From Pseudolabrys sp. (GTDB lineage: Bacteria; Pseudomonadota; Alphaproteobacteria; Rhizobiales; Xanthobacteraceae), in assembly GCA_019635575.1 (NCBI GenBank), contig JAHBZF010000006.1:1-59018 (forward strand): 59,018 bases of DNA, read 5' to 3'. The notes under the pieces are model-generated. The model did no database searches. It was not told where the DNA came from and saw only the letters and a program-made list of their open reading frames with translations. Both the position numbers and the translations under genes were made by a program. Position 1 is the stretch's first letter, and every line of letters begins with the position of its first letter. Shown here one piece after another: positions 16,518-53,064 of the stretch.

Positions 16518-16565
16518 GCCGGTCGAGCCCGGCGCGCAAGACGTGCCGGATATCTTCAAAATCGT

Positions 16566-16930
16566 CTAGCGACCACCGATGTTGCTGCGGAGATAACTAG
16601 CCCTCGCTGCAAGGATGTGAGCCGTCATGACCGCTCGCGCCCATTCCGGATCTTGGGCGGAAAATGCAGCAATCAGTTCACGGTGATGAGAAAAGCTCCG
16701 CGTCGGCTCGGCGGCCGTATAGCGTTGATAGGTTTTTAGAATCACTGTCATCTCGATCAACCCGGCCATGAGCGCCTGGAGGCGCTTACTGTTAGCTGCA
16801 TCCAAAATTTGGCGAATATACGGGGTGACATGAGCGCGGCGCTCGCGCGGGACCGTGAGCGCGCGTTTCGCATCGCGACATTGAGTCGATGTTTCGCAGA
16901 TCCTCGCAGGCGATCTGTGCAGGAGGCGTG
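16566..16930 (-). pseudogene. remnant of a GntR/FCD-family regulator
   Basis: The last 79 residues (16566-16805), including SFSHHRELIAAFSAQDPEWARAVM, are the C-terminal half of an FCD ligand-binding domain. The reading frame stays open upstream, but the matching upstream FCD piece (PAQIACEDLRNIDSMS, about 16870-16920) is in another frame, implying a frameshift. No DNA-binding domain is present; the remnant abuts the stop of the hydrolase gene. It is probably a decayed regulator of a neighbouring catabolic cluster. Confidence 0.6.
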
Positions 16931-16935
16931 GACAG

Positions 16936-27076: not shown

Positions 27077-28126
27077 ATGGCCAAAATCAAGACAGTGTTG
27101 TTTGCTGCCGCTGCCGCGGCAGTGTTCGCTTCGCCGCTTATGTCTTCGGCCGTGGCCCAGACGGTGGAGCTGAAACTTGCTCACCACATTTCGCCGCAGC
27201 ATCCGATGTCGGTGTTCCTGCAGAAATGGGCCGACCAGGTCGGTGCGGAGTCGAATGGCCGGATGAAGGTCTCGGTTTTCCCGAGCCAGCAGATGGGCCC
27301 CGCCGATCGTAATTATCGTATGGTGGAAACGGGTGTCGCCGACATCAGCTGGCTTTTGCATGGTCTGACGTCGGATCTGTTTCCGTTGACCGGCCTCGCG
27401 GATTTGCCGTTCACCGTCGGCAGCGCGGAAATCGGCGCCAAGGTTCTCAACGACCCGGCTCTGCTCGATAAGTATCTCGCGCCGGAACACAAGGGCATGA
27501 AAGTCCTGTGGCTGTTCACCAGTCCGCCGGGCAATCTCAACATGGCCAATGCGAAGGTCGACAGCGTGGCGGCCCTGCAGGGCAAGCGCATCCGGTTCCC
27601 CTCGCGCACGATCCGCGATTACATCTCCGCGCTGGGTGCGACGCCGCAAGCGATGCGGCCGACCGAAATGCTCGAGGCACTGCAGAAAGGCACCGTCGAT
27701 GGCGTGTTCATCGACTGGGGTGGAGCGGGGCTCGCGTTCAAGCTCGGGCCGTATGTCAAATACACGACCGAGCTGCATGCTTATGTCTCGACAATGTGCA
27801 TTTGTATGAACAAGGCGAGCTACGATCGCTTGCCGGCCGACCTCAAGGCGATCTTCGACAAGACGATCAAGGGCAGGGAAGCGGAGATCGGCAAGCTGTG
27901 GGACGATGCCGAGGGCGTCGGCAAGTCCGTCATGTTGAAGGACGGCACGGAAGCCGTGCGCGTGTCCGATGCCGAAATGGAGAAATTCAAGACGGCTGGC
28001 CGGAAGGTGAGCGACGACCACATCGCGGCGCTGGCCAAGCGCGGGCTGCCGGCCAAGGAAGCTTACGATCTGATGACGACGCTGGCTGCCAAATACACGC
28101 AAACATCTCGCTCGTTCTGGAAGTAG
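27077..28126 (+). CDS. TRAP transporter substrate-binding protein (DctP family)
   Basis: A 349-residue periplasmic receptor with a signal peptide ending near AVAQ (residues about 1-28). The DctP core includes LQGKRIRFPSRTIRDYISALGATP, carrying the conserved Arg that pairs with a ligand carboxylate. AGGGGGA precedes ATG 27077. It starts an operon with dctQ, dctM, a flavin monooxygenase and DUF2783, so it should bring in the monooxygenase substrate or its precursor (inference). Confidence 0.93.
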   Translation: MAKIKTVLFAAAAAAVFASPLMSSAVAQTVELKLAHHISPQHPMSVFLQKWADQVGAESNGRMKVSVFPSQQMGPADRNYRMVETGVADISWLLHGLTSDLFPLTGLADLPFTVGSAEIGAKVLNDPALLDKYLAPEHKGMKVLWLFTSPPGNLNMANAKVDSVAALQGKRIRFPSRTIRDYISALGATPQAMRPTEMLEALQKGTVDGVFIDWGGAGLAFKLGPYVKYTTELHAYVSTMCICMNKASYDRLPADLKAIFDKTIKGREAEIGKLWDDAEGVGKSVMLKDGTEAVRVSDAEMEKFKTAGRKVSDDHIAALAKRGLPAKEAYDLMTTLAAKYTQTSRSFWK

Positions 28127-28653: not shown

Positions 28654-29952
28654 ATGAGCAATCAAATCATCGGCCTCATCGGCTGTTTCGCGGTCGTCGC
28701 GCTGGTGCTTCTGCGTATCCCCGTCGGCTTCACGCTGGCAATCGTCGGTTTCATCGGCTACTGCGCGATCAACGGCGTATCGCATGCGTTGCTGAAGATC
28801 GGCGAAATGCCGCTCGAGATCATCAACTACGACCTGATCGTCTTGCCGCTGTTCGTCCTGATGGGAAGCGTTTGCCTGAAATCGGGAATGTCCCGCGATG
28901 TCTTCGCGGTGGCAAATGCGGCGTTCGCCGGTCGGCGTGGATCGCTGGCATTAGCCTCGGTTGGCGCCAGCGCCGCTTTCGGCGCGGTCAGCGGGTCGTC
29001 GCTGGCGACGGTGTCGACGGTGGCGAAGGTGACGGTGCCGGAAATGCGTCGCGCCGGCTACAGCATGATGCTAGCGGGCGGGAGTGTCGCGTCGGCCAGC
29101 ACGCTCGCGGTGCTGATTCCGCCGTCGGTCATTCTTGTGATTTACGCCCTGATGTCGGAGCAGTCGCTCGGCAAGCTCTATGCGGCCGCGCTTCTTCCCG
29201 GCCTGCTGCTGGTGGTGCTCTATGTCATCATTGTGGCCGGGTGGGTCATGCTTCAGCCCGACGCGGCACCGCGCGGGCCACGGGAGCCGCTGCGCACGAG
29301 GCTCTATAATCTGACGAAGATCTGGAAGATCGCGTTGCTGTTCGGCGGCGCGATTGGCGGTATGTACGCCGGCTGGTTCAGCCCGACCGAAGGCGCGGCG
29401 ATGGGTGCGGCGGGCGCTGTGGTCATCGGCTTTGCGACCCGCTCGCTGGGTATTCGCGGCCTGATCGATGCAACTGTGGAGACGGTACAGACCAGCGCGG
29501 CTCTGTTTTTCATCGTCATCGGCGCGATGCTGTTTGCCTATTTTATCGTCCAGGCCGGACTGCCGACCGCTTTTGTCGATGCGACGAAGTATTTCGAGCT
29601 GAAGCCCTGGCAGGTGATGGGCGCGATCATCGTGTTCTACATCATCGCCGGATGCTTCCTGGATTCGATCGGCATGATCCTGATGTCGGTTCCGATCTTC
29701 CTGCCGGTGATCATCAGCCTCGGCTATGATCCGGTCTGGTTCGGAATTCTGCTGGTGGTGCTGGTGGAAATCGGTCTCATCACGCCGCCGGTTGGAATGA
29801 ACTGCTATGTGCTGCGAACGCAAATCCCGGATATTCCGATCGGCACGATCTTCCTCGGCGTTGCGCCGTTCCTGCTGGCCAATCTGGCGTTGATCGCGAT
29901 CTTGCTGATGTTTCCGCAAGTTGCGCTCTGGCTGCCCAGCGCGCTGTTCTGA
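28654..29952 (+). CDS. TRAP transporter large permease (DctM family)
   Basis: A 432-residue multi-pass protein with DctM motifs: FGAVSGSSLATVSTV, VASASTLAVLIPPSVILVIYA and AGWFSPTEGAAMGAAG. It forms the channel with the upstream DctQ. The flavin monooxygenase gene begins 38 bases downstream. Confidence 0.94.
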   Translation: MSNQIIGLIGCFAVVALVLLRIPVGFTLAIVGFIGYCAINGVSHALLKIGEMPLEIINYDLIVLPLFVLMGSVCLKSGMSRDVFAVANAAFAGRRGSLALASVGASAAFGAVSGSSLATVSTVAKVTVPEMRRAGYSMMLAGGSVASASTLAVLIPPSVILVIYALMSEQSLGKLYAAALLPGLLLVVLYVIIVAGWVMLQPDAAPRGPREPLRTRLYNLTKIWKIALLFGGAIGGMYAGWFSPTEGAAMGAAGAVVIGFATRSLGIRGLIDATVETVQTSAALFFIVIGAMLFAYFIVQAGLPTAFVDATKYFELKPWQVMGAIIVFYIIAGCFLDSIGMILMSVPIFLPVIISLGYDPVWFGILLVVLVEIGLITPPVGMNCYVLRTQIPDIPIGTIFLGVAPFLLANLALIAILLMFPQVALWLPSALF

Positions 29953-29990: not shown

Positions 29991-31664
29991 ATGGCCATCG
30001 ATCACCAGTCTCTCTATTTCTCCTACGAGGAGTTTCCGTTCGTCGCGCCGCCGGAATTGAGCGGCAACGGTTCGCGGCACAGCGTCACGATCGTTGGTGC
30101 CGGGCCGGTCGGACTGACGGCGGCGCTGGCGCTGGTGCGGCAGGGCGTATCGGTTACGGTTCTCGAAGACGAAGCGACGCTGAATATCGGCAGCCGGGCC
30201 GCCGGAACGGCGCGGCGCAGCCTCGAGATTCTCGACAGCCTCGGCGCTGCCGAACGTCTCGTTGACAAAGGCGTCGCGTGGACGAAGGGGCAGAGCTATT
30301 ACGGCGACAAGCTTGTCCTCGATTTTTCCATGCCGGTGCTCGACAACGTCAAGCATCCGCCGATGGTCAATCTCCAGCAGTGCTATGTCGAGCAATATAT
30401 CCTCGACGAGTTGTCGAAGAGTCCGCTTGCCACTGTCCGCTGGTCGTCGGCCGTCAAGGCGGTCGAGAACTGCGGCGACCGCGTCAAGGTTCAGGTGGCA
30501 ACGCCCGACGGCGATTACGAACTGGAAAGCGACTGGCTCATCGCCTGCGACGGCGCGCGCAGCGTGATCCGCAGCTCCCTTGGCTTGCGGATGGAAGGGA
30601 CGAGCTACGAAGGGCGTTACATCGTCGCCGACGTGCGGCTTGCGACGGATTTGCCGCCCGGCCGCCGTGTCTGGTTCGATTCGGCAGGAAATCCCGATTC
30701 CACCATTATTCTGCACCGTCAGCCCGACAACATCTGGCGTATCGACTATCAGTTGCGGGACGATGAGGACTCCGATCGCGAGTTGGAGCCGGAGCGTGTG
30801 CGAAGCCGGATTCAGACGTTCCTGGATTCCGTCGGGATCGGCGGACCGTGGGAAATCGACTGGGTGTCGCTCTACCGCGCCCATAGTCTTTCGTTGAAAA
30901 ACTACTGGCATGGACGGGTGTTATTCGCCGGCGATGCCGCGCATTTGGTGCCGATCTTCGGCGCGCGTGGCATGAATGGCGGCATCGATGATGTCTTCAA
31001 TCTGGCCTGGAAACTGGCCTATGTCGTGCGTGGCGTCGCGCCGCCGGCTCTATTGAACACCTATACCGAAGAGCGGTATTTCGCGTTCCAGGAGAATATC
31101 CGTAACGCGAACAAGAGCACCAAGGTGATGGCGCCGCCGACCCGCGGCGATCTGCTGATGCGGGACGCGGTGCTGGAACTGGCCGTCGAGCATGAATTTG
31201 TGCGGCCGTTGCTTAATCCGCGTCAGAGCGCGGAGATATTTCTGCGCGACTCAAGTCTCAGAGAACCGGGGGACACGACAGTCGGCGGGCTCGCGCCGGG
31301 GCAGGTGTGCCCGAATATCAAAGTCTCCGTGATGACGGACGGCACAGCGGAGACGCGCTATCTGCACGAATTGCTGGGGCCGGAATTCACCGTGCTGGTG
31401 CAGAGGAAGGCTGATGGCATGATGCCGGAATGGCCCGCCACGATGCACGGGCTCGGCCTCAAAACGATTTACGTCGAGCGCGCCGGTGAAACGCCGGGAC
31501 TTTCTCATATCCGCGATGTGGACGGAGCCGTGGCTCAGGCATTCCAACTGATGGATGGCGGCGCGGTTCTAATTCGTCCCGATCATCATGTGCTCGGACG
31601 ATGGCGTGAAGGAACTCCGGATGTCGTTTCAGCGGCGTTGCGACGCGTTGCGACCTGGCAATAG
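29991..31664 (+). CDS. class A flavin monooxygenase (PheA/TfdB/MhpA type)
   Basis: A 557-residue FAD- and NAD(P)H-dependent aromatic hydroxylase. Motifs in order: GAGPVG dinucleotide fold (near residue 37), ACDGARS (the DG motif), and GDAAHLVPIFGARGMNGG (the GD motif, with the family's Pro). A C-terminal thioredoxin-like domain follows, as in phenol hydroxylases. It is expected to ortho-hydroxylate a phenolic acid. A DUF2783 gene starts 11 bases downstream. The protein is clearly related to the one at 37878-39569, which has the same partner. Confidence 0.92.
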   Translation: MAIDHQSLYFSYEEFPFVAPPELSGNGSRHSVTIVGAGPVGLTAALALVRQGVSVTVLEDEATLNIGSRAAGTARRSLEILDSLGAAERLVDKGVAWTKGQSYYGDKLVLDFSMPVLDNVKHPPMVNLQQCYVEQYILDELSKSPLATVRWSSAVKAVENCGDRVKVQVATPDGDYELESDWLIACDGARSVIRSSLGLRMEGTSYEGRYIVADVRLATDLPPGRRVWFDSAGNPDSTIILHRQPDNIWRIDYQLRDDEDSDRELEPERVRSRIQTFLDSVGIGGPWEIDWVSLYRAHSLSLKNYWHGRVLFAGDAAHLVPIFGARGMNGGIDDVFNLAWKLAYVVRGVAPPALLNTYTEERYFAFQENIRNANKSTKVMAPPTRGDLLMRDAVLELAVEHEFVRPLLNPRQSAEIFLRDSSLREPGDTTVGGLAPGQVCPNIKVSVMTDGTAETRYLHELLGPEFTVLVQRKADGMMPEWPATMHGLGLKTIYVERAGETPGLSHIRDVDGAVAQAFQLMDGGAVLIRPDHHVLGRWREGTPDVVSAALRRVATWQ

Positions 31665-31675
31665 AGGAGCACACG

Positions 31676-31882
31676 ATGTCGGCCTCGGCACTTTCCCTGG
31701 ACGAACTTGAGGCGCTGTGGGCTTTGCTCGCGGAGCGGATTACGCAGGCTGAAACGCAATCCGAGGTTTTCCTGACGAAGCTCGCCGTCCTGCTGGCGAA
31801 CGAGGTTGGCGATTATCAGCGTGTGCTCGATTGCGTGAATGCTGCCAGCAAGGATCAGCGTCCGGTCAAGCGATCAGTCTAG
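31676..31882 (+). CDS. DUF2783 small protein paired with the flavin monooxygenase
   Basis: A 68-residue soluble, probably helical protein of unknown function. It shares the core VFLTK-L--LLA with the DUF2783 protein at 37682-37888, and both directly follow a monooxygenase gene of the same type. A small accessory subunit of the monooxygenase is the simplest reading (inference). It ends the operon that begins at 27077. Confidence 0.8.
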   Translation: MSASALSLDELEALWALLAERITQAETQSEVFLTKLAVLLANEVGDYQRVLDCVNAASKDQRPVKRSV

Positions 31883-33029: not shown

Positions 33030-34256
33030 GTGAGCCGGCCGATGCATGTCCTGATTTCCGGCGCGGGTATCGGTGGGTTGGCCGCGGCGCTTGCTTTGCT
33101 TCGTCGTGGCATCGACGTGACCGTTTTCGAGCAGGCGGCCGCCTTGCGCGAAGTCGGAGCGGGGGTGCAGATCAGCCCGAACGGCACGCGGGTTCTGGAG
33201 GCTCTGGGACTGGGCAGCCGAATGCGGGAGTTGGGGACCGCCACCTCCGGCAAGGAGGTGCGGCTCTGGAACACCGGCCAGACCTGGCGAACCATGGATC
33301 TGGGCGCCGCCACGACCGCACAATATGGCGCGCCGTACCTCACCTTTCATCGGGCCGACCTCCACAGCATGCTGCTTGATGCCGTCACGCAGCAGAAGCC
33401 CGATGCGGTCAGGCTCGGGGCGAAGGGCGTCGGATTCACGCAGAACGGCGCGACCGTGTCGCTTCGGCTGGCGAGCGGTGAGGAGGTTTCGGGCGACGCT
33501 CTGGTGGGCGCGGACGGTGTTCACTCGACCATTCGTCAGCAATTGTTCGGTAGTGATCGGCCGGTGTTCACCGGCTGCATGGCCTGGCGCGGCTTGATTC
33601 CGGAAGACGCCTTGCCGGAGACCATTAATCGGACCGGCGGCGTCTCCTGGCTCGGCCCGACGGCGCACATCCTCACGTATCCGGTGCGGCAGGGGAAATT
33701 GCTCAACTTCATCGGCATGGTCGATCGCGACGACTGGCGCGTGGAATCATGGAGCGCCGCGGGCTCGGTCGATGAATGTGCCGCCGACTTCGTCGGATGG
33801 CATGACGATGTGCAACGGATGGTCCGCGGGATTGGCATTCCATTCAAATGGGCGCTGATCGTGCGCGAAGCGTTGCCTCGCTGGAGCATCGGCCGGGTAA
33901 CGTTGCTCGGCGACGCGTGCCATTCGACGTTGCCGTTCCTGGGGCAGGGCGCGAACATGTCGATCGAGGACGGCTATGTCCTTGCCGATTGTGTGGCGGA
34001 AGCGAGGGATGACAGCGCCGCTGCGTTTGCGCGCTATGAGGATTTGCGCAAGGAGCGGACCAAGAAAATCGTCGATATGGCGGCGGCGCAAACCGGCAAG
34101 GTGCACAACCCCGCGCTCGCGGTTCCAAAACAAGCGGAAGAACACATCGCCGCGCACTGGACGCGTCAACATGTCGGCGACCGCTATGACTGGATTTACC
34201 GTTATGATGCGACTGCCGCCGCGCGTGCGCCGGTGGAAAGCTCGCTGGCGCTCTAG
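33030..34256 (+). CDS. FAD-dependent monooxygenase, salicylate hydroxylase-like
   Basis: A 408-residue class A flavoprotein. Motifs: GAGIGGLAAALAL near residue 11, GADGVHSTIR (DG motif) and LLGDACHSTLPFLGQGANMSIEDG (GD motif). This subgroup includes salicylate 1-hydroxylase, 3-hydroxybenzoate 6-hydroxylase and 6-hydroxynicotinate 3-monooxygenase. It differs from the two larger monooxygenases nearby by lacking the C-terminal thioredoxin-like domain and having no DUF2783 partner. The start is GTG. A TctC gene follows within 45 bases. Confidence 0.9.
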   Translation: MSRPMHVLISGAGIGGLAAALALLRRGIDVTVFEQAAALREVGAGVQISPNGTRVLEALGLGSRMRELGTATSGKEVRLWNTGQTWRTMDLGAATTAQYGAPYLTFHRADLHSMLLDAVTQQKPDAVRLGAKGVGFTQNGATVSLRLASGEEVSGDALVGADGVHSTIRQQLFGSDRPVFTGCMAWRGLIPEDALPETINRTGGVSWLGPTAHILTYPVRQGKLLNFIGMVDRDDWRVESWSAAGSVDECAADFVGWHDDVQRMVRGIGIPFKWALIVREALPRWSIGRVTLLGDACHSTLPFLGQGANMSIEDGYVLADCVAEARDDSAAAFARYEDLRKERTKKIVDMAAAQTGKVHNPALAVPKQAEEHIAAHWTRQHVGDRYDWIYRYDATAAARAPVESSLAL

Positions 34257-34301
34257 CCCGTGACCGCAATGCCGGACTTCCAGGGTACGAACAGAAATCG
34301 G

Positions 34302-35297
34302 ATGGATAGCATGACCCGTAGCAGGTTTCTTGCGGCTGCCCTGTTGGGCCTTCTTCTCGGCACGTCCTCGCTGACAGCGAGTCCGGCGAAGGCGGACGAT
34401 TTTCCGGAACGGCCCATCACGATCGTCGTGGCTTATGCGGCGGGAGGCGGGACCGATGTTGCCGCTCGCATTTTCAGCAGCGGATTGGCCGAGGCGTTGA
34501 AAGCTTCGGTTGTCGTGGAAAATCGCGGTGGTGCATCCGGAACGGTCGGCACCGGTGTGGTCGCACATGCCAAGCCGGATGGTTACACGCTGTTGTTCGG
34601 CGATATGGGATTGCCGGTGAATCCGGCGCTGTTCAAAAATCTGCCCTACAATTCGGATCAGGCGTTTGCGCCCGTTGCGATGGTGGCGAGAACGCCCGTC
34701 GCCCTTCTTGTGCCTCCGTCAATGCCGGTGAAGTCGATCGGCGATTTTGTCGAGTTGGCGAAAAAGGGACCGAAACCGCTGGCGTTCGGAAGCCCAGGCA
34801 TCGGCACGCCGCCGCATCTCGCGGGCGTTGCGCTCATGAACGCGACGCATATTCCGCTGACGCATGTGCCTTATCGCGGCACCGGTCCGGTGCTCAATGA
34901 TCTGATGGCCGGGCATATCGATCTCGGTTTCAGCGGTCCTGCCGCGCTGGAGCAGGTGCGGTCCGGAAAGCTTCGCGCGCTCGCCATTACCGGTGACAAG
35001 CGGCAGGCTGTCATGCCGGAAATTCCGACGTTCAAGGAGCTGGGGATCGACCTTTCGGTCATGTCCTATGGTGCATGGTGGGGTATTGTCGTGCCGCGCG
35101 GCACGCCGCCGGACATCATCGCCAAACTCAACAAGGCGGTGAACGAAGCGTTGGCAATCCCGACCGTCAAATCGCGCCTCGAGGGCGCCGGCTATGAAGT
35201 GATCGGCGGAACCGCTGACGAATTCGCCGCGTTCCTGAAGGCGCAGCATCAATATTGGCCGCCGGTTCTGGCGGCGGCCGGCGTGCAGGCTCAGTAA
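34302..35297 (+). CDS. orphan TctC/Bug-family periplasmic binding protein
   Basis: A 331-residue receptor with a signal peptide (SRFLAAALLGLLLGTSSLTA and an AKA cleavage site). Family motifs are ITIVVAYAAGGGTDVAARIF, VVENRGGASGTVG and PDGYTLL. A second ATG at 34311 is an alternative start. It follows the salicylate hydroxylase-like gene and may bind its substrate, but no permease genes are adjacent. Confidence 0.9.
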   Translation: MDSMTRSRFLAAALLGLLLGTSSLTASPAKADDFPERPITIVVAYAAGGGTDVAARIFSSGLAEALKASVVVENRGGASGTVGTGVVAHAKPDGYTLLFGDMGLPVNPALFKNLPYNSDQAFAPVAMVARTPVALLVPPSMPVKSIGDFVELAKKGPKPLAFGSPGIGTPPHLAGVALMNATHIPLTHVPYRGTGPVLNDLMAGHIDLGFSGPAALEQVRSGKLRALAITGDKRQAVMPEIPTFKELGIDLSVMSYGAWWGIVVPRGTPPDIIAKLNKAVNEALAIPTVKSRLEGAGYEVIGGTADEFAAFLKAQHQYWPPVLAAAGVQAQ

Positions 35298-35432: not shown

Positions 35433-35954
35433 TCAGCCCAAGACAAGAGAATCGAATTCGAAGAACTCCGGTGCGACCACGTCGCTCTGGCGAAGATAGA
35501 TGTCGATATTGCCGAGATGGAACGAGCGGTGGGCGTACATGCCCCAGAGCAATCCCATGCCGGTCCATTCGCGCCCGACGAATTGCAGCTTTTTGGTCAA
35601 GTCCTCAGCACGGTAGGATTTAAGCGCTGCCATGTTTTCTTCGTGCAGCGTCAAAGCCGTCTGTTGCAGGTCAGTGTTTTCAAACCGTGCGGCGGCGACG
35701 GGATCATTCGGCAGGGGAACGGTCGCGCCCGGCGCGCTTTCGCGAATTCGCGCGACGAAGTTGCGTTCGGCCAGCGCGCAATGGATGAGAAGCCCGCGTA
35801 CGGTGATGCGCGACAGGCGGCTGCCGAAACGCATGCTGGGATTTTCGATGGGGGCCCAGTCGAGTTTCTGCTCGTCCATCAGCGCGATCCAGCGGTGAGA
35901 GTACCTGACCATGCTGTCGAACAGCGCCAGGAATCGAGTGAATTCCTCAGTCAT
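35433..35954 (-). CDS. DinB-like four-helix bundle protein
   Basis: A 173-residue protein with the DinB/YfiT-like pattern: an early helix (FLALFDSMVRYSHRWI), a His in GLLIHCALAERNF, and a C-terminal HRSFHLGNIDIYL with two His. These could make the three-His metal site of the family. DinB-fold proteins include thiol-dependent transferases and isomerases such as maleylpyruvate isomerase. AAGGAG precedes the ATG. It is the last gene of the DszB-like operon, 11 bases after it. Confidence 0.75.
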   Translation of the reverse strand: MTEEFTRFLALFDSMVRYSHRWIALMDEQKLDWAPIENPSMRFGSRLSRITVRGLLIHCALAERNFVARIRESAPGATVPLPNDPVAAARFENTDLQQTALTLHEENMAALKSYRAEDLTKKLQFVGREWTGMGLLWGMYAHRSFHLGNIDIYLRQSDVVAPEFFEFDSLVLG

Positions 35955-35965: not shown

Positions 35966-37039
35966 TCAGCTTTGGAATGCGAGACGGTCGGCAGCGAGCA
36001 ATTCGCGGGCGCGCTCCAGCGGGCGGGGATCGATGAATAGGTCGAAATCGATCGCCTGGGCGAGGAAGTTATGGCGGAGCAGGTGGTCGTGCTGCACCTT
36101 CAGCCCCTCGATCCATTCCGGCCGAAGGTCGATGGCGAGTTGACGGTGCACCTGCGGCGTGAAGGCGACGTCGACCAGTTCCTCGGGCAATCCGGTATCG
36201 ATCGCCATGAAACGTTTTGCCAACGCCTCGTTCCGTTCCGCCCATTCGGCGGCCCGAATGATGGCGGCCACGCAGGATGCGACCAGATCCAGATTCGTTT
36301 CGATCAGCTCGGTACTCACGGTGAGCATGAGCGGTGAATCGTTGTTGACGCGATCAGCAAGGGCTTTGGAGGTGCCGTTATCCGTAATCGCAAGGGCGCC
36401 GGTGAAGCCTTGCACCACGCTGCTGATGGCGCCCTGGCTATAGATAGCATCGACTTCGCCGCGAATGAGCGCGATCGCTTCCTCGCGCTGATGCCCCAAC
36501 ATGCAGTCCGCGCCCCACAGGGTCGTCGTCGATGCGGTCGATGCGGTAGCAGCGTCGATATAGGCCCGGTTGCTGACGACGGGTGTGAGCTTGACGTCTT
36601 CCATCGTCATGCCCGCGCGCGCCAAGGCAACTTCGGTTCCGCGCAGCGAGGCCGCCTTCCAGAAGTCGATGGAATCATTCGCGCGGATCGGCAGCGAGAC
36701 CTTCTTGCCGGCGAGGTCCGCGACCGAGCGGATGCCGCTCTCCGGCATGACGAGCATCGGCTTGATGCTGTCGTTCCACGACAGACCGATGAGCGACACT
36801 TTCCCGCCGCGCGAGCGGGTCACCAGCGGCGGGCCGTTGCCGCCGTGGCGGAAGGAGTTGGGCAGCGAGTGGTGAAAGTGAGATTGGCGAACCGCGTTGT
36901 CTTTGCTGGACGCTAGCGACCGGGCGGTGATGCCATGCCTCTCAAGCTCCTTGTCCAGAAACCCGTTTCCGATGGCGACGCTGAAGGCCGTGGGAACGGG
37001 GCAGCGCGTATACCAGATGGTGTCTAACGTGTTGGACAT
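35966..37039 (-). CDS. DszB-like desulfinase/lyase homologue
   Basis: A 357-residue protein resembling 2'-hydroxybiphenyl-2-sulfinate desulfinase (DszB, 365 residues), an enzyme on the NMT1/binding-protein fold. The three catalytic residues of DszB, as I recall them (Cys27, His60, Arg70), have counterparts: C13 in RCPVP, H54 in SHFHH and R64 in FRHGG, with His to Arg spacing identical and followed by GG-x-x-PP. No signal peptide is present. The ATG at 37039 gives the family length; GAGAC precedes it. No dszA or dszC homologue was recognised. It might cleave a C-S, C-C or other bond of an aromatic ring (inference). Confidence 0.75.
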   Translation of the reverse strand: MSNTLDTIWYTRCPVPTAFSVAIGNGFLDKELERHGITARSLASSKDNAVRQSHFHHSLPNSFRHGGNGPPLVTRSRGGKVSLIGLSWNDSIKPMLVMPESGIRSVADLAGKKVSLPIRANDSIDFWKAASLRGTEVALARAGMTMEDVKLTPVVSNRAYIDAATASTASTTTLWGADCMLGHQREEAIALIRGEVDAIYSQGAISSVVQGFTGALAITDNGTSKALADRVNNDSPLMLTVSTELIETNLDLVASCVAAIIRAAEWAERNEALAKRFMAIDTGLPEELVDVAFTPQVHRQLAIDLRPEWIEGLKVQHDHLLRHNFLAQAIDFDLFIDPRPLERARELLAADRLAFQS

Positions 37040-37046: not shown

Positions 37047-37685
37047 TCATTGTCTGGAGGCGGGAGTGGACTGCGACAGCCATGCCTCATAGCGGCGGCG
37101 AAGCGCGCGCTCCGCTTCACTGTTTCCCATGACCGTGTCCGCGGGAATCTGGCGGCCCTTCTTGATCTGGCGCATCTGCATGAATGCAAAACCGCTCGTT
37201 CCAGGCTCCAGCTTGATATCGGTCAGCCAGTCGGGCGCAACGCCCTGAACCGGATCGAGCCGGTCCTTGTCGAAGATCGCGGTCCACAGGCTGATGGCCC
37301 ACCGGCCGTTACGGCGCTCGACCTGGTCGTAGAAGCGACAATAACCCGAATAGTCGAAAAGCTGGTCGTGGATATATTCGCGCATCATGATGGTCACGTC
37401 GGTTTCCATCACCGCGCGATCGCCGTTGATGTGCACGAGGCAATTGCCTAGCCAATGCTTGCTGTGTTCGGTCGGCTTGCGCGCCTTGTCGCTTGCGATC
37501 AGCAGTGGGGTCAGATCGCGAACCGCGCCCTTGAACCAGGAGATGCTCGCTTCCGCGTCGGGATGAAAGCATTTGCTCATAGTGTCGAAATCTCCGGCAT
37601 CGCGGGAAAATGCCCACGTCTGGCGCAGCCGCCGGATCTCGATCTCACTGTTCGTGTCTGTTTGGTGAATCGGCATTATCATCAT
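37047..37685 (-). CDS. NTF2/SnoaL-like protein
   Basis: A 212-residue protein whose N-terminal half has the SnoaL-like pattern found in small cone-fold proteins: RRLRQTWAFSRDAGDFDTMSKCFHPDAEASI and WLGNCLVHINGDRAVMETDV. It is cytoplasmic. The fold includes ring-hydroxylating dioxygenase small subunits, dehydratases and isomerases. Its ATG overlaps the DUF2783 stop (ATGA), so the two are coupled. It is 7 bases upstream of the DszB-like gene. Confidence 0.75.
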   Translation of the reverse strand: MMIMPIHQTDTNSEIEIRRLRQTWAFSRDAGDFDTMSKCFHPDAEASISWFKGAVRDLTPLLIASDKARKPTEHSKHWLGNCLVHINGDRAVMETDVTIMMREYIHDQLFDYSGYCRFYDQVERRNGRWAISLWTAIFDKDRLDPVQGVAPDWLTDIKLEPGTSGFAFMQMRQIKKGRQIPADTVMGNSEAERALRRRYEAWLSQSTPASRQ

Positions 37686-37888
37686 TTCTGCTGCGGTTCG
37701 ATGTCTTGCAGCGCAACGTCGAGGAAATCCCGGAGGGTTTCCGGCCTCTCGAGTTTTGCCGCCAGCATCAACACGACCTTGGTGAGAAATACCGGAGCCT
37801 TCTCGCTGCCGATGGTGTTCAACGCCTGCGCGAGACTTTCCCAGTTTTCCTCGAGGAGGTGCGGAGGAATCTTGGTGTCAATCAACAT
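37682..37888 (-). CDS. DUF2783 small protein paired with the flavin monooxygenase
   Basis: A 68-residue soluble protein with the same core as 31676-31882 (VFLTKVVLMLAAK). It overlaps the monooxygenase gene upstream by 11 bases and the NTF2-like gene downstream by 4, so all three should be made together. Function unknown. Confidence 0.78.
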   Translation of the reverse strand: MLIDTKIPPHLLEENWESLAQALNTIGSEKAPVFLTKVVLMLAAKLERPETLRDFLDVALQDIEPQQK

Positions 37889-39569
37889 GACGGCACTCTG
37901 TATTCTTCCAGCGGATCGCTTTCAGGAGCTTGTCGAGCATGGCTCCCGCATCGAATTGGCGCCAGCGGCCCGCGACATGTCCATCGGGGCGGATCAGATA
38001 GGCCGTTCCATCCTGCGCGTCGAAAGCGGCGTACAAACCTGCATCGCGAATCTGCACCACGTCGAAGCCGAAGGGAATTTTCATGCTCTGAACCAGCGCA
38101 CGCATGTCTTGGGCGGCAGCAGTGTCCGTTTTGTGAAACAGCAGCAGGGTGAAATCGCGCCCCAGACGGCCTTGCAGATGGTCGCCGGGACCATCCGTGC
38201 ATAGCGGCAGGTTGGGACAAACCGCGCCGGGAAGGGGGCCTCCAGCGAAGCGAATGTCGTCCGCATCGTCAAAGCGCAACGGACCGGCGGTCATGCGCAG
38301 CTCGGTGACTTGCCGGGGATTGATCAGGTCGCGGATAAATGGCTCTTTCACGGCCAGCGAGAGAATGGCCTCCTGCAGGACGGCATGCCCGAATGTCGGC
38401 GGAGTCATGAAACGAGTGCTTTTTTCCGCGAACGCCATGTTCTGATGCGCGGCATCGACGCGTTCGGACGAATAGCTGTCCAGTAATGCGTCGTCGCACC
38501 AGCCGGAGACCACGTAGGCAAGTTTCCAGGCGAGATTGTTGGCGTCGTCCACGCCGCCGTTCATGCCGCGCGCGCCGAAGATCGGCACCAGATGCGCGGC
38601 ATCGCCGGCGAACAGAACGCGGCCCTCGCGATAGCTGTCGAGCGACAGGCTGAGCGCGCGATAGGGGCTGATCCAGTCGATGGCCCAGTCCGCGGTCTCG
38701 CCGATCGATTTCAAGAAGCGGTCGACACGCTCGCGCACGCGCCGCGGTTGAACTTCTTCGTCCAGATCGTCATCCGGCCCGAGCTGATAATCGATGCGCC
38801 AGATGTCGAATGGCTGCTTGTGCATGATGATGGTGGAGCCGGGGAATTCCGGCGGAGCAAACCACACGCGGCGCCCGGCCGGCTGACTGCTTTTCATCTG
38901 GATATCGACAATCAGGTAGCGGCCTTCGTAGCTGCTGCCTTTGAGTTCTTTGCCAAGGGCCTTGCGCACCGCGCTGCGGCCGCCGTCGCATGCCACCAGC
39001 CATGCGCCGCGCATGTCGTATTCACCGTGCGGCGTCGCGACGGTGGCGATCACCTCGTTGCCGTTCTGTCGCGCGGAAACCACCTTCGACGACCAGCGGA
39101 TGCTGGCCTTCGGATGGTTCTGCAGAGCGTCGTAAAGGTATTGCTCGACATTGCATTGCGCGATGGACACCATCGGCGGATGCTTGAGATTGTCGGCCTG
39201 CTGGACCACGAAGTCCAGCACCAGGCTGTCGCGATAATAGCTCTGTCCGCCTTTCCATGAGACGCCCGTCTCGAAGATGCCAGGACCCGCGCCCGCGCGC
39301 TCGAAGATTTCAAGACTGCGGCGCGCGATGCCGACCGCGCGGCTGCCGCGGTTGACCGTATCGTCCTCTTCCAGCAGCACCACCTCGATCCCCCTGCGGG
39401 CGAGATCGAGCGCCACGGTCATGCCGACCGGGCCGGCGCCGGCGATGATGACGGGATAGAGGCGCGACTTGCCGTCGAGTTCAGGTGTCCGCTGAAAAGC
39501 GTGGTGCACATAATCGAAGTACAGCGAGTTATAGGTACCCACGGCCGTCACTTGGGCTTCTGCTGGCAT
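37878..39569 (-). CDS. class A flavin monooxygenase (PheA/TfdB/MhpA type)
   Basis: A 563-residue FAD-dependent hydroxylase, related along its whole length to the one at 29991-31664. Motifs: GAGPVG near residue 44, ACDGGRS, and GDAAHLVPIFGARGMNGGVDD, then a thioredoxin-like C-terminal domain. It is the first gene of a five-gene operon (to 35433). An 18-bp dyad lies 59 bases upstream of its start and matches the palindrome in front of the MarR gene. Confidence 0.92.
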   Translation of the reverse strand: MPAEAQVTAVGTYNSLYFDYVHHAFQRTPELDGKSRLYPVIIAGAGPVGMTVALDLARRGIEVVLLEEDDTVNRGSRAVGIARRSLEIFERAGAGPGIFETGVSWKGGQSYYRDSLVLDFVVQQADNLKHPPMVSIAQCNVEQYLYDALQNHPKASIRWSSKVVSARQNGNEVIATVATPHGEYDMRGAWLVACDGGRSAVRKALGKELKGSSYEGRYLIVDIQMKSSQPAGRRVWFAPPEFPGSTIIMHKQPFDIWRIDYQLGPDDDLDEEVQPRRVRERVDRFLKSIGETADWAIDWISPYRALSLSLDSYREGRVLFAGDAAHLVPIFGARGMNGGVDDANNLAWKLAYVVSGWCDDALLDSYSSERVDAAHQNMAFAEKSTRFMTPPTFGHAVLQEAILSLAVKEPFIRDLINPRQVTELRMTAGPLRFDDADDIRFAGGPLPGAVCPNLPLCTDGPGDHLQGRLGRDFTLLLFHKTDTAAAQDMRALVQSMKIPFGFDVVQIRDAGLYAAFDAQDGTAYLIRPDGHVAGRWRQFDAGAMLDKLLKAIRWKNTECRHVD

Positions 39570-39627: not shown

Positions 39628-39645
39628 TAGTATCAGATGAAACTA
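39628..39645. promoter_or_regulatory. MarR-type operator facing the minus-strand operon
   Basis: TAGTATCAGATGAAACTA matches the perfect palindrome at 39876-39893 at 14 of 18 positions, with identical outer TAGTA and ACTA ends. It lies 59 bases upstream of the monooxygenase start. The remainder of the 373-base gap holds nothing else recognised. Confidence 0.6.
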
Positions 39646-39875: not shown

Positions 39876-39893
39876 TAGTAACATATGTTACTA
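39876..39893. promoter_or_regulatory. perfect 18-bp palindrome upstream of the MarR gene
   Basis: TAGTAACATATGTTACTA is fully self-complementary and has the size of a MarR operator. It lies 50 bases upstream of the MarR start, suggesting autoregulation. Confidence 0.75.
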
Positions 39894-39942
39894 GCTATGA
39901 ATTCTGCTGCGCTTGCTTCCCAGATCGTGCACGGTCATTTCG

Positions 39943-40467
39943 ATGTCGCGCTTAGATAAATCCAATCCAGATGAAACCGATGGCGCGCGTCCGCGATTGG
40001 TCCTGGAGAATTTCACGCCCTATCGCTTGAACACGTTGGCTCGCTTTGCGTCCGAAGGATTTGTGAACAGCTATGCGCGGGAAGCCAGGGAGTTCGGGAT
40101 AGGTCCGGCGGAGTGGCGGGTTATTTCATTTCTGGGCGAGCAGTGCGGCTCGCGCAGAGGCACGGAGGAAATGACCGCGCGAGATATCGGCGCGCGTACC
40201 TTCATGCAGAAGGTTCAGGTCTCGCGTGCCATACTTAAGCTGGAACGCAAACGTCTGATTTCGCGCCGTCTCAATTTCAACGATCGTCGAGAGGTGTTCC
40301 TGAAGCTCACGCCTTCGGGAAAAAGGGTCTATGCGGTGATCGCGCCGATCGCCTTGCGGTATCAAAAATCCTTAACCAGGGGGCTCTCGGCCGTGGATAT
40401 GAAGACGTTGAATCGTGTCATGGGCGTCCTGCTTGGAAACGCCAAGGAGCTGGGTCGTAAGACGTAA
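39943..40467 (+). CDS. MarR-family transcriptional regulator
   Basis: A 174-residue winged-helix protein. The recognition region is MTARDIGARTFMQKVQVSRAILKLERKRLI, followed by the wing NFNDRREVFLKLTPSGK. It is transcribed away from the monooxygenase/DszB-like operon, and related palindromes stand before both. The ATG at 39943 has a poor ribosome binding site; TTG 39913 is a possible longer start. It probably represses both promoters until a pathway compound binds (inference). Confidence 0.88.
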   Translation: MSRLDKSNPDETDGARPRLVLENFTPYRLNTLARFASEGFVNSYAREAREFGIGPAEWRVISFLGEQCGSRRGTEEMTARDIGARTFMQKVQVSRAILKLERKRLISRRLNFNDRREVFLKLTPSGKRVYAVIAPIALRYQKSLTRGLSAVDMKTLNRVMGVLLGNAKELGRKT

Positions 40468-47074: not shown

Positions 47075-49114
47075 CTATCGGCCGTGTAATCCGCATTCCT
47101 TCTTCGCGGCCTCTTCCCACCACCAGCGGCCGGCGCGTTCCGGCTCTCCGGGCCGCAACGCGCGTGTGCACGGCGCGCAGCCAATGGATGCGAAGTTTCG
47201 GTCGTGCAGCGGATTGACCGGAACGCCTTGCGATGCGGTGAATGCAGCAACCTGCTCGCGTGACCAATCAAAGATCGGATTGAGTTTGAGCAGGCGATAC
47301 GAGGCATCTTCTGTGAGCAATGCCATATCGGCGCGATTGGCGGACTGATCCGCCCGCAGCCCGGTGATCCATCCCGTTGCGCCAGCGAGCGCGCGGCTCA
47401 ATGGCTCCACTTTCCGCACGAAGCAGCAGGCCAGCCGGGTCTCGCGGCTTGCATAGAACCCGTTGATTCCCTGTTTTTCGACCAGAGCTTCAAGAGCGTC
47501 GTGGCGCGGATAGAAGGCGCGGATGCGCTTGCCGAAATGGCTCTCCGTCTGCGCCCAAAGATCATAGGTTTCCGGAAACAAACGGCCGGTATCCAAGGTC
47601 ACAACGTCGATGTCGATGTCATTGCGGATGATCATCTCGAGGATGGCTTGATCCTCGATGCCGAAACTGGTGGTGAAGACGATCCGTCCCTCGACCGAAT
47701 CGCGCAGCAGCTTGAGCCGATCGACCGGCGGCAAATCCGCCAGACGCGGGGCGAGTGCTTCAGCTCGCTGTTGCAATGCGCGGCGAGCCGTCGAATCCGA
47801 ACCTCGAATCTCGTTCTGGTCACGGCGCTGATCCAGCAGATCGAGGATCAGGCCGCCGCCGCCGATACGTCCGTCGATCTCCAGGGCGAAGCGGCCGGTG
47901 GCCGGGTTCTCGGTGGAGCGGTCCACGGCAAGCGGCTTCGCCAGTTCGATGTCGATTTCCCCGATGTGATTCTGCGGAATGGCGTGGCTGACGCCGGACT
48001 GCAGGGCGCCCGGATCGAGGGTATTGACGATCGCGGACACCTGCCCACGCGCTTCGCTGGTTCCCAGACGCAGCGTGACTGTCGTATTCGGCACGAGCGG
48101 CTTGGGGTGCAGCCAGAAGATGCGCGCGCGGATGCGGCGGGAGGCGGGGACGGGGGCCGAGGTGCGGGCGATGATCTCGCCCCGCTGCACGAACAATTCG
48201 CGATCGAGCGTGATCCCCACGGAGCGCCCGGCGTTTGCTACGGTGACTGTCTTGCCTTCGTGAGGGACCGGCCAATTCTCGATGGAGCGGATGCGGGCGA
48301 CCTTGTTGCCGGGCATGACGGTGATCTCGTCACCCACGCCGATCTCGCCGCTTTCGATCCGACCGGCGATGATCCGCCGGTCGTCGAACTTGTAAACCGC
48401 CTGCACCGGCAGCCGGAGCGGCAGGTTCGGCAGCGCCGCCGCCGGCGAGAACTGATCGAGCGCCTGCACCACCGGAGGGCCGTCGTACCACGCCAGCGAC
48501 GCACTCTTAAGGGCCACGCCGTCGCCTTCGCGAGCAGAGACCGGAATGATCGCCGCCGGTTTGATCCCGAGACCGGACAGATAGCCATCGATTTCTGCGG
48601 CGATCTCATTGAACCGCGCGGCGCTGTAGCCGGTGCGATCCATCTTGTTGACCACGACGGCGACCTGGCGGACCCCGAGAAGATGCAGCAGGTAGCCGTG
48701 GCGGCGGGTCTGTTCGCGTACGCCCTCCGTCGCGTCGATCATCAAGACTGCGGCGTCGGCCTGCGCCGCGCCGGTGATCATGTTGCGCAGGAATTCGACG
48801 TGACCCGGCGCGTCGATCAAAACGAAATCGCGTGACGCCGTGCGAAACCGGATCTGGCTGGTGTCGATAGTGATGCCCTGGTCGCGCTCGGTCTGCAGCG
48901 CATCGAGCAGGAATGACCATTCGAACGGCATGCCGCGGCGTGCGCTGACCGCCTTGAGATGATCGAGCTTGCCGTCGGGAAGGCTGCCGGTCTCGTACAG
49001 CAGCCGGCCGATCAGGGTCGATTTTCCGTGATCGACATGCCCGACAATGACGATGCGGACGAGTGGACGCTGGTCCGCGACGGGGAACAGTTCGGGGTTT
49101 ACCAGGACGTTCAT
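47075..49114 (-). CDS. cysN-cysH fusion: fusion of sulfate adenylyltransferase subunit 1 (CysN) and APS reductase (CysH)
   Basis: A 679-residue bifunctional protein. Residues 1 to about 425 are the CysN GTPase: GHVDHGKS (25-32), DAPGH (101-105) and NKMD (156-159), with the beta-barrel domains. After a linker, residues about 455-679 are an assimilatory APS reductase: TTSFGIEDQA, TLDTGRLFPE, paired C563-C564 and C646-x-x-C649 for a [4Fe-4S] cluster, and the catalytic C674 in the ECGLH tail. The cluster cysteines indicate APS rather than PAPS as substrate. There is no CysC kinase domain. The gene follows cysD by 14 bases. Confidence 0.92.
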   Translation of the reverse strand: MNVLVNPELFPVADQRPLVRIVIVGHVDHGKSTLIGRLLYETGSLPDGKLDHLKAVSARRGMPFEWSFLLDALQTERDQGITIDTSQIRFRTASRDFVLIDAPGHVEFLRNMITGAAQADAAVLMIDATEGVREQTRRHGYLLHLLGVRQVAVVVNKMDRTGYSAARFNEIAAEIDGYLSGLGIKPAAIIPVSAREGDGVALKSASLAWYDGPPVVQALDQFSPAAALPNLPLRLPVQAVYKFDDRRIIAGRIESGEIGVGDEITVMPGNKVARIRSIENWPVPHEGKTVTVANAGRSVGITLDRELFVQRGEIIARTSAPVPASRRIRARIFWLHPKPLVPNTTVTLRLGTSEARGQVSAIVNTLDPGALQSGVSHAIPQNHIGEIDIELAKPLAVDRSTENPATGRFALEIDGRIGGGGLILDLLDQRRDQNEIRGSDSTARRALQQRAEALAPRLADLPPVDRLKLLRDSVEGRIVFTTSFGIEDQAILEMIIRNDIDIDVVTLDTGRLFPETYDLWAQTESHFGKRIRAFYPRHDALEALVEKQGINGFYASRETRLACCFVRKVEPLSRALAGATGWITGLRADQSANRADMALLTEDASYRLLKLNPIFDWSREQVAAFTASQGVPVNPLHDRNFASIGCAPCTRALRPGEPERAGRWWWEEAAKKECGLHGR

Positions 49115-49128: not shown

Positions 49129-49923
49129 TTACAGGTAGCCGGCTGTGCGCAGGCGCTCGAACGCGTCTTCGGATTCGTGATCCATGGCGCGCCCGGATCG
49201 CTCCGGTACCTTCGTGTCGTGCAATTCCTCGATGATCTCGTCGATGGAGCGCGCATCGGACACGACGGGAAAGGTGATGTCGGCATCACCGAGGGAGCGA
49301 TAGCGCTTTCCGTTGCGGCTCAGATAGAGCGGGATAATCGGAATGCTCTCGCGTCGCGTATACGCCCAGATGTCGATCTCGGTCCAATGCAGGATCGGAT
49401 GAATGCGCAAATGCGCGCCGCGCGGTGGCGACGCGTTAAAGTGATTCCAGAATTCGGGTGGCTGGTCGCGGACATCCCACAGACCTTCCGCGCCGCGCGG
49501 TGAAAATACGCGCTCCTTGGCACGGGTCGGTTCCTCGTCGCGGCGGATGCCGGTGATCAGGCCATCGAAGCCGTGCTTGACGAGTGCGCTCTTCAATCCT
49601 TCCGTTTTGCGCGCGGCAGAGCGGGCCGCGGGCGGTAACGTCGGATCGACGGAATCGATCGGTGGGCAATCCTCGACGATGAGATCGAGCGACCATTCCT
49701 TCGCGTATCGGGTGCGAAATTCGTACATCTCCGCGAATTTCTTGCCTGTATCGACGTGCATGACCGGAAAGGGTACGCGGCCAAAGAACGCTTTTCGCGC
49801 CAGCCAGATCATCACGTTCGAATCCTTGCCCAGCGACCACAGCAGGGCGATGTTTTTCATCCGCGCAAATGCCTCGCGCAAGATGAAGATGCTTTGCGCT
49901 TCGAGCTCGTCGAGCCGATCCAT
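49129..49923 (-). CDS. cysD: sulfate adenylyltransferase subunit 2
   Basis: A 264-residue protein of the PP-loop ATPase family that makes APS from ATP and sulfate together with CysN. Seen here: the PP-loop LLWSLGKDSNVMIWL, VMHVDTGKKFAEMYEFR, and the SLGDADITFPV C-terminal region. The ATG at 49923 is chosen on length and GGAG upstream; the longer frame has no support. It is divergent from the sulfate transporter operon across a 369-base regulatory region. Confidence 0.95.
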   Translation of the reverse strand: MDRLDELEAQSIFILREAFARMKNIALLWSLGKDSNVMIWLARKAFFGRVPFPVMHVDTGKKFAEMYEFRTRYAKEWSLDLIVEDCPPIDSVDPTLPPAARSAARKTEGLKSALVKHGFDGLITGIRRDEEPTRAKERVFSPRGAEGLWDVRDQPPEFWNHFNASPPRGAHLRIHPILHWTEIDIWAYTRRESIPIIPLYLSRNGKRYRSLGDADITFPVVSDARSIDEIIEELHDTKVPERSGRAMDHESEDAFERLRTAGYL

Positions 49924-50247: not shown

Positions 50248-50292
50248 CGATCATCAATGGCGACCGATCTTCCGGTGGAAGTGGAGATGAGG

Positions 50293-51285
50293 ATGAAACG
50301 TACTCTTTACGGTTTGATTTTAGCTGCCGCTCTGGGCGCAAATGCGCATGCTGCGGATATCACGTTGCTCAATGTATCTTACGATCCGACCCGCGAGCTG
50401 CATGCGGCGTTGAGCAAGGCGTTTTCCAGCCAATACAAGACGCCTGAGGGGAAAACCGTCGAGATCAAGTCGTCGCATGGCGGTTCCGGCAAGCAGGCCA
50501 GATCCGTGATCGACGGGCTTGCTGCCGATATCGTCACGCTGGCACTGGCTTACGACATCGACGCCATCGCCGATCGCGGGCTGCTGGCGAGCGATTGGCA
50601 GAAGAAGCTTCCGGAAAATTCGGCGCCATATACCTCGACGATCGTTTTCCTGGTGCGCAAGGGAAATCCAAAAGGCATCAAGGACTGGGGCGATCTGGCC
50701 AGGGTTGGTGTGAAGATCATTACGCCGAATCCAAAGACATCCGGCGGGGCTCGCTGGAACTATCTGGCGGCATGGGGCTACGCCCTGAAACAGCCGGGTG
50801 GAACGCCGGACAAGGCCAAGGCGTTTGTCAAAGCGATCTATGCCAATGTGCCGGTGCTGGACACCGGCGCCCGAGGTTCGACAGTGACATTCGTCGAGCG
50901 CAATGTGGGCGACGTGCTGGTCACCTGGGAAAACGAGGCATTCCTGTCCATCAAGGAGTTCGGGCAGGACAAGTTCGACATCGTCGTTCCTTCGGTCTCG
51001 ATCCTCGCGGAGCCGCCAGTCGCCGTCGTCGACAAGGTTGTCGACCGGAAAGGCACGCGTGCGGCGGCGATGGCCTATCTGAACTTCATCTACAGCAAGC
51101 AGGGCCAGGAGATTTCGGCCGAGAATTTCTACCGGCCGCGTGACCCGGAGATCGTCAAGAAATATGAGACGCAATTTCCCAAGGTGAACCTGTTCACCAT
51201 CGACGAGGTATTCGGCGGCTGGCGCAATGCCCAGAAGACGCACTTCGCCGATGGCGGTGTGTTCGACACCATTTACCAGAACTGA
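50293..51285 (+). CDS. sbp: periplasmic sulfate-binding protein
   Basis: A 330-residue sulfate receptor of the CysAWTP-type ABC transporter. Signal peptide [20 protein letters not shown] is cleaved before ADITLL. The signature [11 protein letters not shown] and [14 protein letters not shown] are classic for Sbp/CysP proteins. ATG 50293 fits the signal peptide best; two ATGs lie slightly upstream. It heads the operon sbp-cysT-cysW-cysA. Confidence 0.95.
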
Positions 51286-51294
51286 GGTACAACC

Positions 51295-52143
51295 GTGGCG
51301 AGCGGAATTCTGTTGCTGCGGCGGCAGCCGAGCGTCATTCCGGGATTTGGGATCACGCTGGGCGTATCCCTGACATGGCTGTCGCTGATCATTCTCATTC
51401 CGCTCGCCGCGCTGTTCCTGAAGACGACGGAGCTGTCGTTCGAGCGATTCGTGACGATCGTCACCAGCCCGCGCACGCTGCACGCGCTGGAGTTGTCCTT
51501 CGGCCTGGCGCTGGCCGCGGCGGCGACGAATTTGGTGTTTGGCCTGATCGCGGTCTGGGTTCTGGTTCGCTACGAATTTCCCGCCCGGCGGATGTTCGAC
51601 GCGGTGATCGATATCCCGTTTGCGTTGCCGACGGCCGTCGCGGGCATCGCGCTGACCAATCTCTATGCGGAGAACGGCTGGATCGGTAGCCTGCTGGCGC
51701 CGCTGGGGATCAAGGTCGCCTTCACCCAGCTCGGTATCTTCGTCGCGTTGGTGTTCATCGGTTTGCCGTTCGTGGTCCGGACGGTTCAGCCGGTACTGCA
51801 GGATCTCGAGGCCGAGCTTGAAGAGGTGGCGGCGACCCTTGGCGCCAGCCGCTGGACGACGATCCGCCGGGTTATTTTCCCGACTCTGGTGCCCGCGCTG
51901 CTCACGGGCTTCGCGCTCGCCTTCGCCCGCGCGGTCGGAGAATACGGTTCCGTCATTTTCATCGCCGGCAATCTTCCGAATGTGTCGGAAATCGCGCCGC
52001 TGCTGATCATCATCCGCCTCGAGGAGTTCCGTTATGCGGATGCGACCGCGATCGCGGCGGTGATGCTGGTCGCGTCGTTCATCCTGTTGCTGATCATCAA
52101 TCTGTTGCAGCGCTGGTCCGAGCGGCGCGCTGGAAAACGATAA
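51295..52143 (+). CDS. cysT: sulfate ABC transporter permease CysT (CysU)
   Basis: A 282-residue inner-membrane permease with about six membrane segments and the ABC-permease EAA loop ([21 protein letters not shown]). GTG start after GAGG, 9 bases from the sbp stop. Its stop overlaps the cysW start by one base (TAATG). Confidence 0.94.
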
Positions 52144-53054: not shown

Positions 53055-53064
53055 GGACAGGGCG

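Follow-up and report, generated by a model that had tools for sequence, protein, structure and literature searches.

A DszB-like protein encoded in a conserved MarR-associated gene cluster of Pseudolabrys is a predicted cysteine-dependent lyase of an aromatic pathway

The window, by which we mean the whole stretch of 59,018 nucleotides analysed here, encodes a protein that by sequence comparison is a homologue of the desulfinase DszB, matching it better than it matches the best-scoring transport receptor. Judged from these comparisons it would be a DszB-family lyase that needs no cofactor, resides in the cytosol and uses a cysteine as proton donor, working in a MarR-controlled aromatic pathway and most likely acting as a desulfinase on a new substrate, a reading that we put at an even chance. 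The gene and the features around it are as follows.

33030–34256, plus strand: class A FAD monooxygenase FMO2, 408 aa, in the group of the 3-hydroxybenzoate 6-, 6-hydroxynicotinate 3- and tropone 2-monooxygenases
34260–35297, plus strand: TctC-type tripartite tricarboxylate receptor, 345 aa (PF03401)
35433–35954, minus strand: DinB-like protein of 173 aa that has a His and an HxxxH pair (PF12867/PF05163 over the cut-off)
35966–37039, minus strand: predicted DszB-like lyase, 357 aa, ATG at 37039, from homology to DszB
37047–37685, minus strand: SnoaL_4 (NTF2-fold) protein, 212 aa (PF13577, E=3e-17), kept in orthologous clusters
37682–37888, minus strand: DUF2783-like protein, 68 aa, overlapping the FMO1 gene by 11 bases
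37878–39569, minus strand: class A FAD monooxygenase FMO1, 563 aa, with FAD_binding_3 and Rng_hyd_C, PRK08132 subfamily
39628–39645, no strand: candidate operator-like palindrome TAGTATCAGATGAAACTA in the MarR–FMO1 interval
39876–39893, no strand: candidate operator-like perfect palindrome TAGTAACATATGTTACTA in the MarR–FMO1 interval
39913–40467, plus strand: MarR-type regulator (PF12802/PF13463), divergent from FMO1 and kept in orthologous clusters, true start perhaps 39997

In a phmmer search of the PDB sequences, residues 5–341 of the protein matched DszB (2de2, E=2e-17; 2de3, E=7e-16), which was the sole solved relative with a significant match; after it came SsuA at E=0.084, followed by a nitrate transport protein at E=0.16. 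Pairwise alignment of the 357 residues with the 365 of DszB gives 92 identities over 319 aligned positions (29%). The original prediction had matched C13, H54 and R64 to Cys27, His60 and Arg70 of DszB, and both phmmer and the pairwise alignment confirm this; the segment from the His to the Arg is, as it had also said, ungapped and of equal length, continuing into GGxxPP in both proteins. Further pairs (DszB/window protein) are S25/T11, G73/G67, F61/F55 and P76-P77/P70-P71, and the spacing from Cys to His is 41 as against 33 in DszB. The portion of the DszB study consulted (PMC6100217) gives C27, H60, R70, S25 and G73 as the full active-site model and RxGG as a conserved motif of DszB homologues. 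All five residues of this model are kept, with Ser25 replaced by Thr. Among the residues contacting the ring in DszB, F61 corresponds to F55 and F203 to M180, while W155 stands opposite a gap; around these last two the alignment is uncertain. The segment matching the mobile loop of DszB (187–204) differs among family members in both length and sequence but is nearly invariant within the clade of the window protein (TLWGAxCMLGHQREEA), which suggests that the members of this clade probably share one substrate, other than the one used by DszB.

A longer open reading frame would start with TTG at 37189. It was judged less likely than the ATG at 37039 because the ortholog in a second genome of the same genus (L002) has an ATG at the equivalent place; that ortholog, too, has in-frame starts further upstream, and between the two genes dN is 0.020 and dS 0.228.

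It would seem very unlikely that the protein is instead a non-catalytic binding protein, a receptor or sensor in the cytosol or exported, which is what the label 'ABC transporter substrate-binding protein', usual among its relatives, implies. Profile searches do lean weakly that way, the only Pfam match being NMT1 (PF09084), at 24.9 bits against a cut-off of 20.5 over just 83 residues, and the NCBIfam matches, all sub-threshold, being led by SsuA_fam, at 52.5 far below its cut-off of 163.5. However, in a single alignment with the family the Cys, His and Arg were found in none of 12 distinct SsuA-type receptors (13 rows taken from neighbouring loci, L008:2629-3501 being the same gene as L076:8549-9421), whereas DszB has all three. 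Cys13 also sits where a signal peptide would be cut off. N-terminal hydropathy peaks at 1.32 in this protein and at 2.05 in the neighbouring TctC receptor, a weak test as the 13 receptor rows span 0.17 to 3.04, in part through many starts called by script. At the five loci of the window clade that were counted, no gene within 6 kb was labelled as ABC type. The original prediction had raised a grouping with transport receptors lacking these residues; on the phmmer scores, the family tree and the missing residues in all 12 receptors, a plain transport receptor was rejected.

Genes of the minus-strand run, FMO1-DUF2783-SnoaL-DszB-DinB, overlap or are separated by at most 11 bases; FMO2 and TctC converge on this run and MarR diverges from FMO1. 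The flavin monooxygenase, NTF2-like and DinB-like neighbours named beforehand are there as stated. The DUF2783 label holds only through 30% identity to a second window protein, which itself matches PF10932 below its cut-off, the protein at 37682–37888 having no Pfam match at E<=0.01; and the second FAD monooxygenase, the TctC receptor and the MarR regulator of the conserved cluster had been left out. The pairing of FMO1 with DUF2783 recurs at 29991–31882 (plus strand), where a second PRK08132-type FAD monooxygenase is followed by its own 68-aa DUF2783-like protein, beside a TRAP transporter (DctP, 27077–28126; DctM, 28654–29952).

The best solved relatives of FMO1 are PgaE-type oxygenases, and those nearest to FMO2 are tropone 2-monooxygenase (E=9e-72), 6-hydroxynicotinate 3-monooxygenase and the decarboxylative vanillate 1-hydroxylase. 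The SnoaL protein weakly matches gallate decarboxylase (6w54, E=5e-4) and the DinB-like protein, also weakly, 3dka (E=0.0015), its His and HxxxH presumably being the motif of metal-binding DinB proteins. Such neighbours point to a likely aromatic pathway but not to its compound. Deducing a substrate from them was considered, but as FMO2 is similar to hydroxylases of tropone and of 6-hydroxynicotinate and to decarboxylative ones, no substrate follows.

The clade is small, the DszB-like ortholog and its cluster having been found in seven genomes. The L002 genome keeps all the cluster genes and is the only one of 35 other genomes of the genus with the ortholog. Five further genomes belong to the Pigmentiphaga genus group (L003–L006 and L097; 5 of the 11 genomes of the P. 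kullae genus), and share the order MarR / FMO1-DUF2783-FMO2-SnoaL-DszB-DinB-FMN reductase-TctC-Rieske oxygenase, with Pfam names taken from L005. Identity to the window in L003–L006 is 61–74% for the DszB-like, SnoaL, DinB, FMO1 and FMO2 proteins and 48–51% for MarR. Of 268 genomes sampled from the Pigmentiphaga family, five have the DinB-like gene at E<=1e-12, exactly those with the DszB-like ortholog, though these are close relatives and count as one linkage rather than five. The FMO1-DUF2783-SnoaL-DszB-DinB gene set is kept in both Alpha- and Betaproteobacteria, and its patchy spread across the two classes suggests horizontal transfer. These gene types are linked once more in Pigmentiphaga kullae, where the C-terminal fragment of a DszB-like gene (L077:7806-8168) has a MarR gene and another FMO2-like gene in its vicinity. 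L002 and L004 are metagenome-assembled genomes from 'SCNpilot' samples, which we take to refer to a thiocyanate reactor. Among the entries listed in literature searches (on DszB homologues, desulfinases, DUF2783, Pigmentiphaga desulfurization and related enzymes) none described this cluster, which is no proof of its absence from print.

No partners of the DszA and DszC type, expected as luciferase-type (LLM) and acyl-CoA-dehydrogenase-type (ACAD) monooxygenases, were identified around the gene in this clade, in line with the original prediction. No LLM or ACAD gene lies within 6 kb in five clade loci (the window locus, L002, L003, L005 and L006), and none was identified at L004 or L097. In a positive control, L079, the desulfinase gene stands directly between an LLM gene and dszC. 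A dszABC operon was rejected on this 6-kb result and on the finding that all five luciferase-family (PF00296) matches in the window genome, a 209-contig assembly that is 84% complete, lie off the window's contig.

The two palindromes between MarR and FMO1 are candidate operators. Both fit the pattern TAGTWWCNNNNGWWACTA, which was drawn from the palindromes of this interval after the sites had been seen; these two are its exact matches in the window, where 0.01 would be expected with one mismatch tolerated, and the whole genome has no other exact match. With one mismatch the genome holds 4 sites as against 5 for a control pattern, so no wider regulon is claimed. Related palindromes, GTTTC-N4-GAAAC, occur in the MarR–FMO1 intervals of Pigmentiphaga, L006 having one and L003, L004, L005 and L097 two each; elsewhere the form was met only in L100, which overlaps L005; this pattern too was set after three of its palindromes had been seen.

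The idea implied in the original prediction, that DszB-type proteins are otherwise confined to dszABC operons, finds no support. Relatives at about 30–40% identity are found in many rhizobia, some Burkholderiales and others. With the window protein as query, tblastn gave relatives in 87 of 72,556 plasmid records, all below 60% identity and mostly from rhizobia, and with DszB itself 81 records; one match of the latter, 66% identical and annotated as a desulfinase, is that of the positive control, on a Mycobacterium plasmid between the LLM gene and dszC. Of the genomes sampled, profile searches matched 4 of 385 in the class, 10 of 398 in the phylum (cut-off 1e-20 for both) and, in the order to which Pigmentiphaga kullae belongs, 7 of 399 (cut-off 1e-60), counts that are lower bounds as in most genomes only the five best first-look candidates were scored. 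The family is widely but thinly spread, in a patchy manner. Among the 40 plasmid matches listed 14 carry a product name, and in 13 it is 'ABC transporter substrate-binding protein'.

Conservation was followed in an alignment of 36 rows, including six close rows of the window clade and two of DszB. Gapped rows left aside, 31 of 33 have the Cys of C13, 31 of 34 the His of H54, and 34 of 34 the Arg of R64 and likewise the Gly of G67. The two exceptions at C13 have Ser; they are paralogues (L078:4317-5369 and L073:3439-4491) with intact copies in the same loci, and may be natural inactive partners or have other activities. A very divergent member on a long branch, L069:14314-15312, has Asp at the position of His54 and adjoins TctC and LysR genes. 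In the tree the window clade (100/100) groups with L068, L069 and L071 (fork 96/92), apart from two groups that hold monooxygenase-associated members, and DszB is on a long branch that is less surely placed (82/87).

An LLM or ACAD monooxygenase lies within 6 kb of 20 of the 27 sampled family genes outside the window clade, as in dszABC, though several of the 27 share a locus and are not independent. The labels of neighbours are those of BLAST clusters named after annotated members, with gene calls made by script and approximate in unannotated loci. Annotated neighbours include acyl-CoA-dehydrogenase-family proteins and LLM or NtaA/DmoA flavin monooxygenases, and also rhodanese, sulfurtransferase, cysteine dioxygenase and SsuA-type ABC transporter genes; one record consulted is unannotated in this region. 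The other seven of the 27, which lack an LLM or ACAD gene at that distance, are those of L013, L068, L069 (two genes), L070 and L071, and L074_14885. Three loci stand outside the count: L018, which has an annotated LLM neighbour, and L098 and L099, where no LLM or ACAD gene was identified. The contexts of the sister clade differ among themselves. L068 lies with TctA, TctB and FMN dehydrogenase genes, and L069 with CoA transferase and AMP-binding genes and an FMO1-type class A FAD monooxygenase about 5 kb away; these two are of carboxylate/CoA rather than sulfur type. L071 is near SsuA-type receptors and a permease, and L099, whose protein is 77% identical to that of L068, is near SsuA-type receptors and permeases beside an FMN reductase; both favour the sulfur reading.

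For a desulfinase the following mechanism may be proposed, its fold, location, chemistry, substrate class and order of steps all being inferred. In a cytosolic, periplasmic-binding-protein-like cleft, Arg64 and the backbone of Gly67 would bind the anion that is to leave, most likely a sulfinate carried by an unsaturated or aromatic carbon. That carbon would be protonated by Cys13, whose reactivity His54 and Thr11 would tune, with loss of SO2 or sulfite as the preferred reading and of CO2 as the alternative. DszB itself is described in the consulted portion of PMC6100217 as transferring a proton from C27 to the ring carbon in concert with release of SO2. The enzyme would be one step of the MarR-controlled aromatic catabolic cluster, in which the two class A flavin hydroxylases may act on a phenolic substrate before and/or after the lyase step, the SnoaL-like and DinB-like proteins may handle later intermediates and the TctC receptor may serve uptake. 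Desulfination is preferred because DszB is the only solved significant relative, because the active-site residues are kept here and largely across the family, and because most sampled relatives lie near an LLM or ACAD monooxygenase, with sulfur-type genes also nearby. The role in an aromatic cluster is proposed on the nearly contiguous genes, their retention across Alpha- and Betaproteobacteria, the co-occurrence with DinB and the MarR–FMO1 palindromes.

Several observations weigh against desulfination. No sulfinate-making enzyme is evident in the cluster, and class A FAD hydroxylases normally hydroxylate phenols. The contexts of L068 and L069, the 7 of 27 relatives together with L098 and L099 that have no LLM or ACAD neighbour, and the differences at the ring contacts F203 and W155, where the alignment is uncertain, count on the same side. 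Nor do the kept residues prove the same chemistry, because in DszB, according to the part of PMC6100217 consulted, H60Q lowers activity only about 17-fold and R70 is assumed to be structural.

The main rival is decarboxylation, and sequence alone cannot decide between the two. Here the same chemistry, with a proton from the Cys and an anion held by the Arg, would remove CO2 from a hydroxylated (hetero)aromatic acid made by the neighbouring hydroxylases. Decarboxylases with the periplasmic-binding fold are known, 4,5-dihydroxyphthalate decarboxylase being one, and a DszB-type Arg/Gly site could hold a carboxylate. The aromatic hydroxylases next door, the decarboxylative hydroxylases of aromatic acids among the closest solved relatives of FMO2, the TctC receptors and CoA ligase or transferase genes near the window gene or its sister clade, and the lack of any identified sulfur oxygenase in the cluster would all fit. 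We nevertheless regard it as unlikely, as no Pfam or NCBIfam decarboxylase model matches the protein at E<=0.1, the sole characterised relative found removes a sulfinate and most sampled relatives have sulfur-type neighbours. Less likely again is another Cys-dependent reaction on the ring or a ring-fission product, such as C–C cleavage, isomerisation or dehalogenation. The SnoaL-like and DinB-like superfamilies, both represented in the cluster, include isomerase and hydrolase members, and the region matching the mobile loop is clade-specific, but the residues of the desulfinase site model are retained.

Two other blocks of the window were noted. An aromatic catabolic block at 3530–18072 includes a Rieske oxygenase, an SDR, an amidase, a VanA-type oxygenase with its reductase (9341–11429) and a LigB ring-cleavage dioxygenase (13958–14770). 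At 47075–49114 (minus strand) a single 679-aa open reading frame combines two enzymes, a sulfate adenylyltransferase subunit of CysN type and an (A)PAPS reductase of CysH type, the usual CysN fusion being CysN-CysC; it adjoins a CysD-type gene (49129–49923) and cysPTWA-like sulfate transporter genes (50257–54120). This sulfate-assimilation block at 47–54 kb was considered as a sign of sulfur release but is not relied on: it is about 10 kb away and has no matches in Pigmentiphaga kullae L100 and L101, and the L002 flanks compared, of 8 kb, fall short of it.

Taken more broadly, a branch of the DszB family may have left sulfur scavenging to become a cofactor-free aromatic C–C or C–S lyase, in a previously undescribed and horizontally spread aromatic pathway with two class A hydroxylases, SnoaL, DinB, TctC and MarR, its substrate and reaction being new for the family; we think this possible, at a little under an even chance. 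A natural family with the DszB active-site residues in different operons offers a direct test of the Cys/His/Arg site, in desulfination or decarboxylation. It would also be a source of alternative desulfinases; the activity of DszB is too low for industrial use, as stated in the consulted part of PMC6100217. The label 'ABC transporter substrate-binding protein' of many relatives likely needs correction, and the cluster marks an aromatic pathway with no assigned compound.

Compared with known systems, the window protein is closest to DszB, the 2'-hydroxybiphenyl-2-sulfinate desulfinase (2de2, 2de3) of the dszABC operon, with full-length homology and S/T25, C27, H60, R70, G73 and F61 in common. 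It differs in its operon and hosts, in having no DszA or DszC partners found nearby, in the 8 more residues from Cys to His, and in the sequence of the mobile loop and the probable ring contacts. The bds operon of Gordonia terrae C-6, in the part of PMC3868597 consulted, encodes a benzothiophene-pathway desulfinase functionally analogous to DszB, likened here by description and not by sequence; unlike the window gene it is encoded with DszC-like and DszA-like monooxygenases. The term 'sulfinate desulfinase', in the part of PMC6015842 consulted, refers to a cysteine enzyme. SsuA/NMT1-type substrate-binding proteins have a weak profile similarity to the window protein, probably through a common ancestral fold, but the 12 compared are without its Cys/His/Arg set. 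The DszB-like proteins encoded on replicons of rhizobia, Burkholderia, Variovorax, Sphingobium and Streptomyces, all uncharacterised, are 36–39% identical to it and share motifs of the YTRCPVP, HFxH and FRxGGNxP[PA] type, but most of those sampled adjoin LLM/ACAD monooxygenases and ABC transporters, whereas the window gene adjoins class A FAD hydroxylases.
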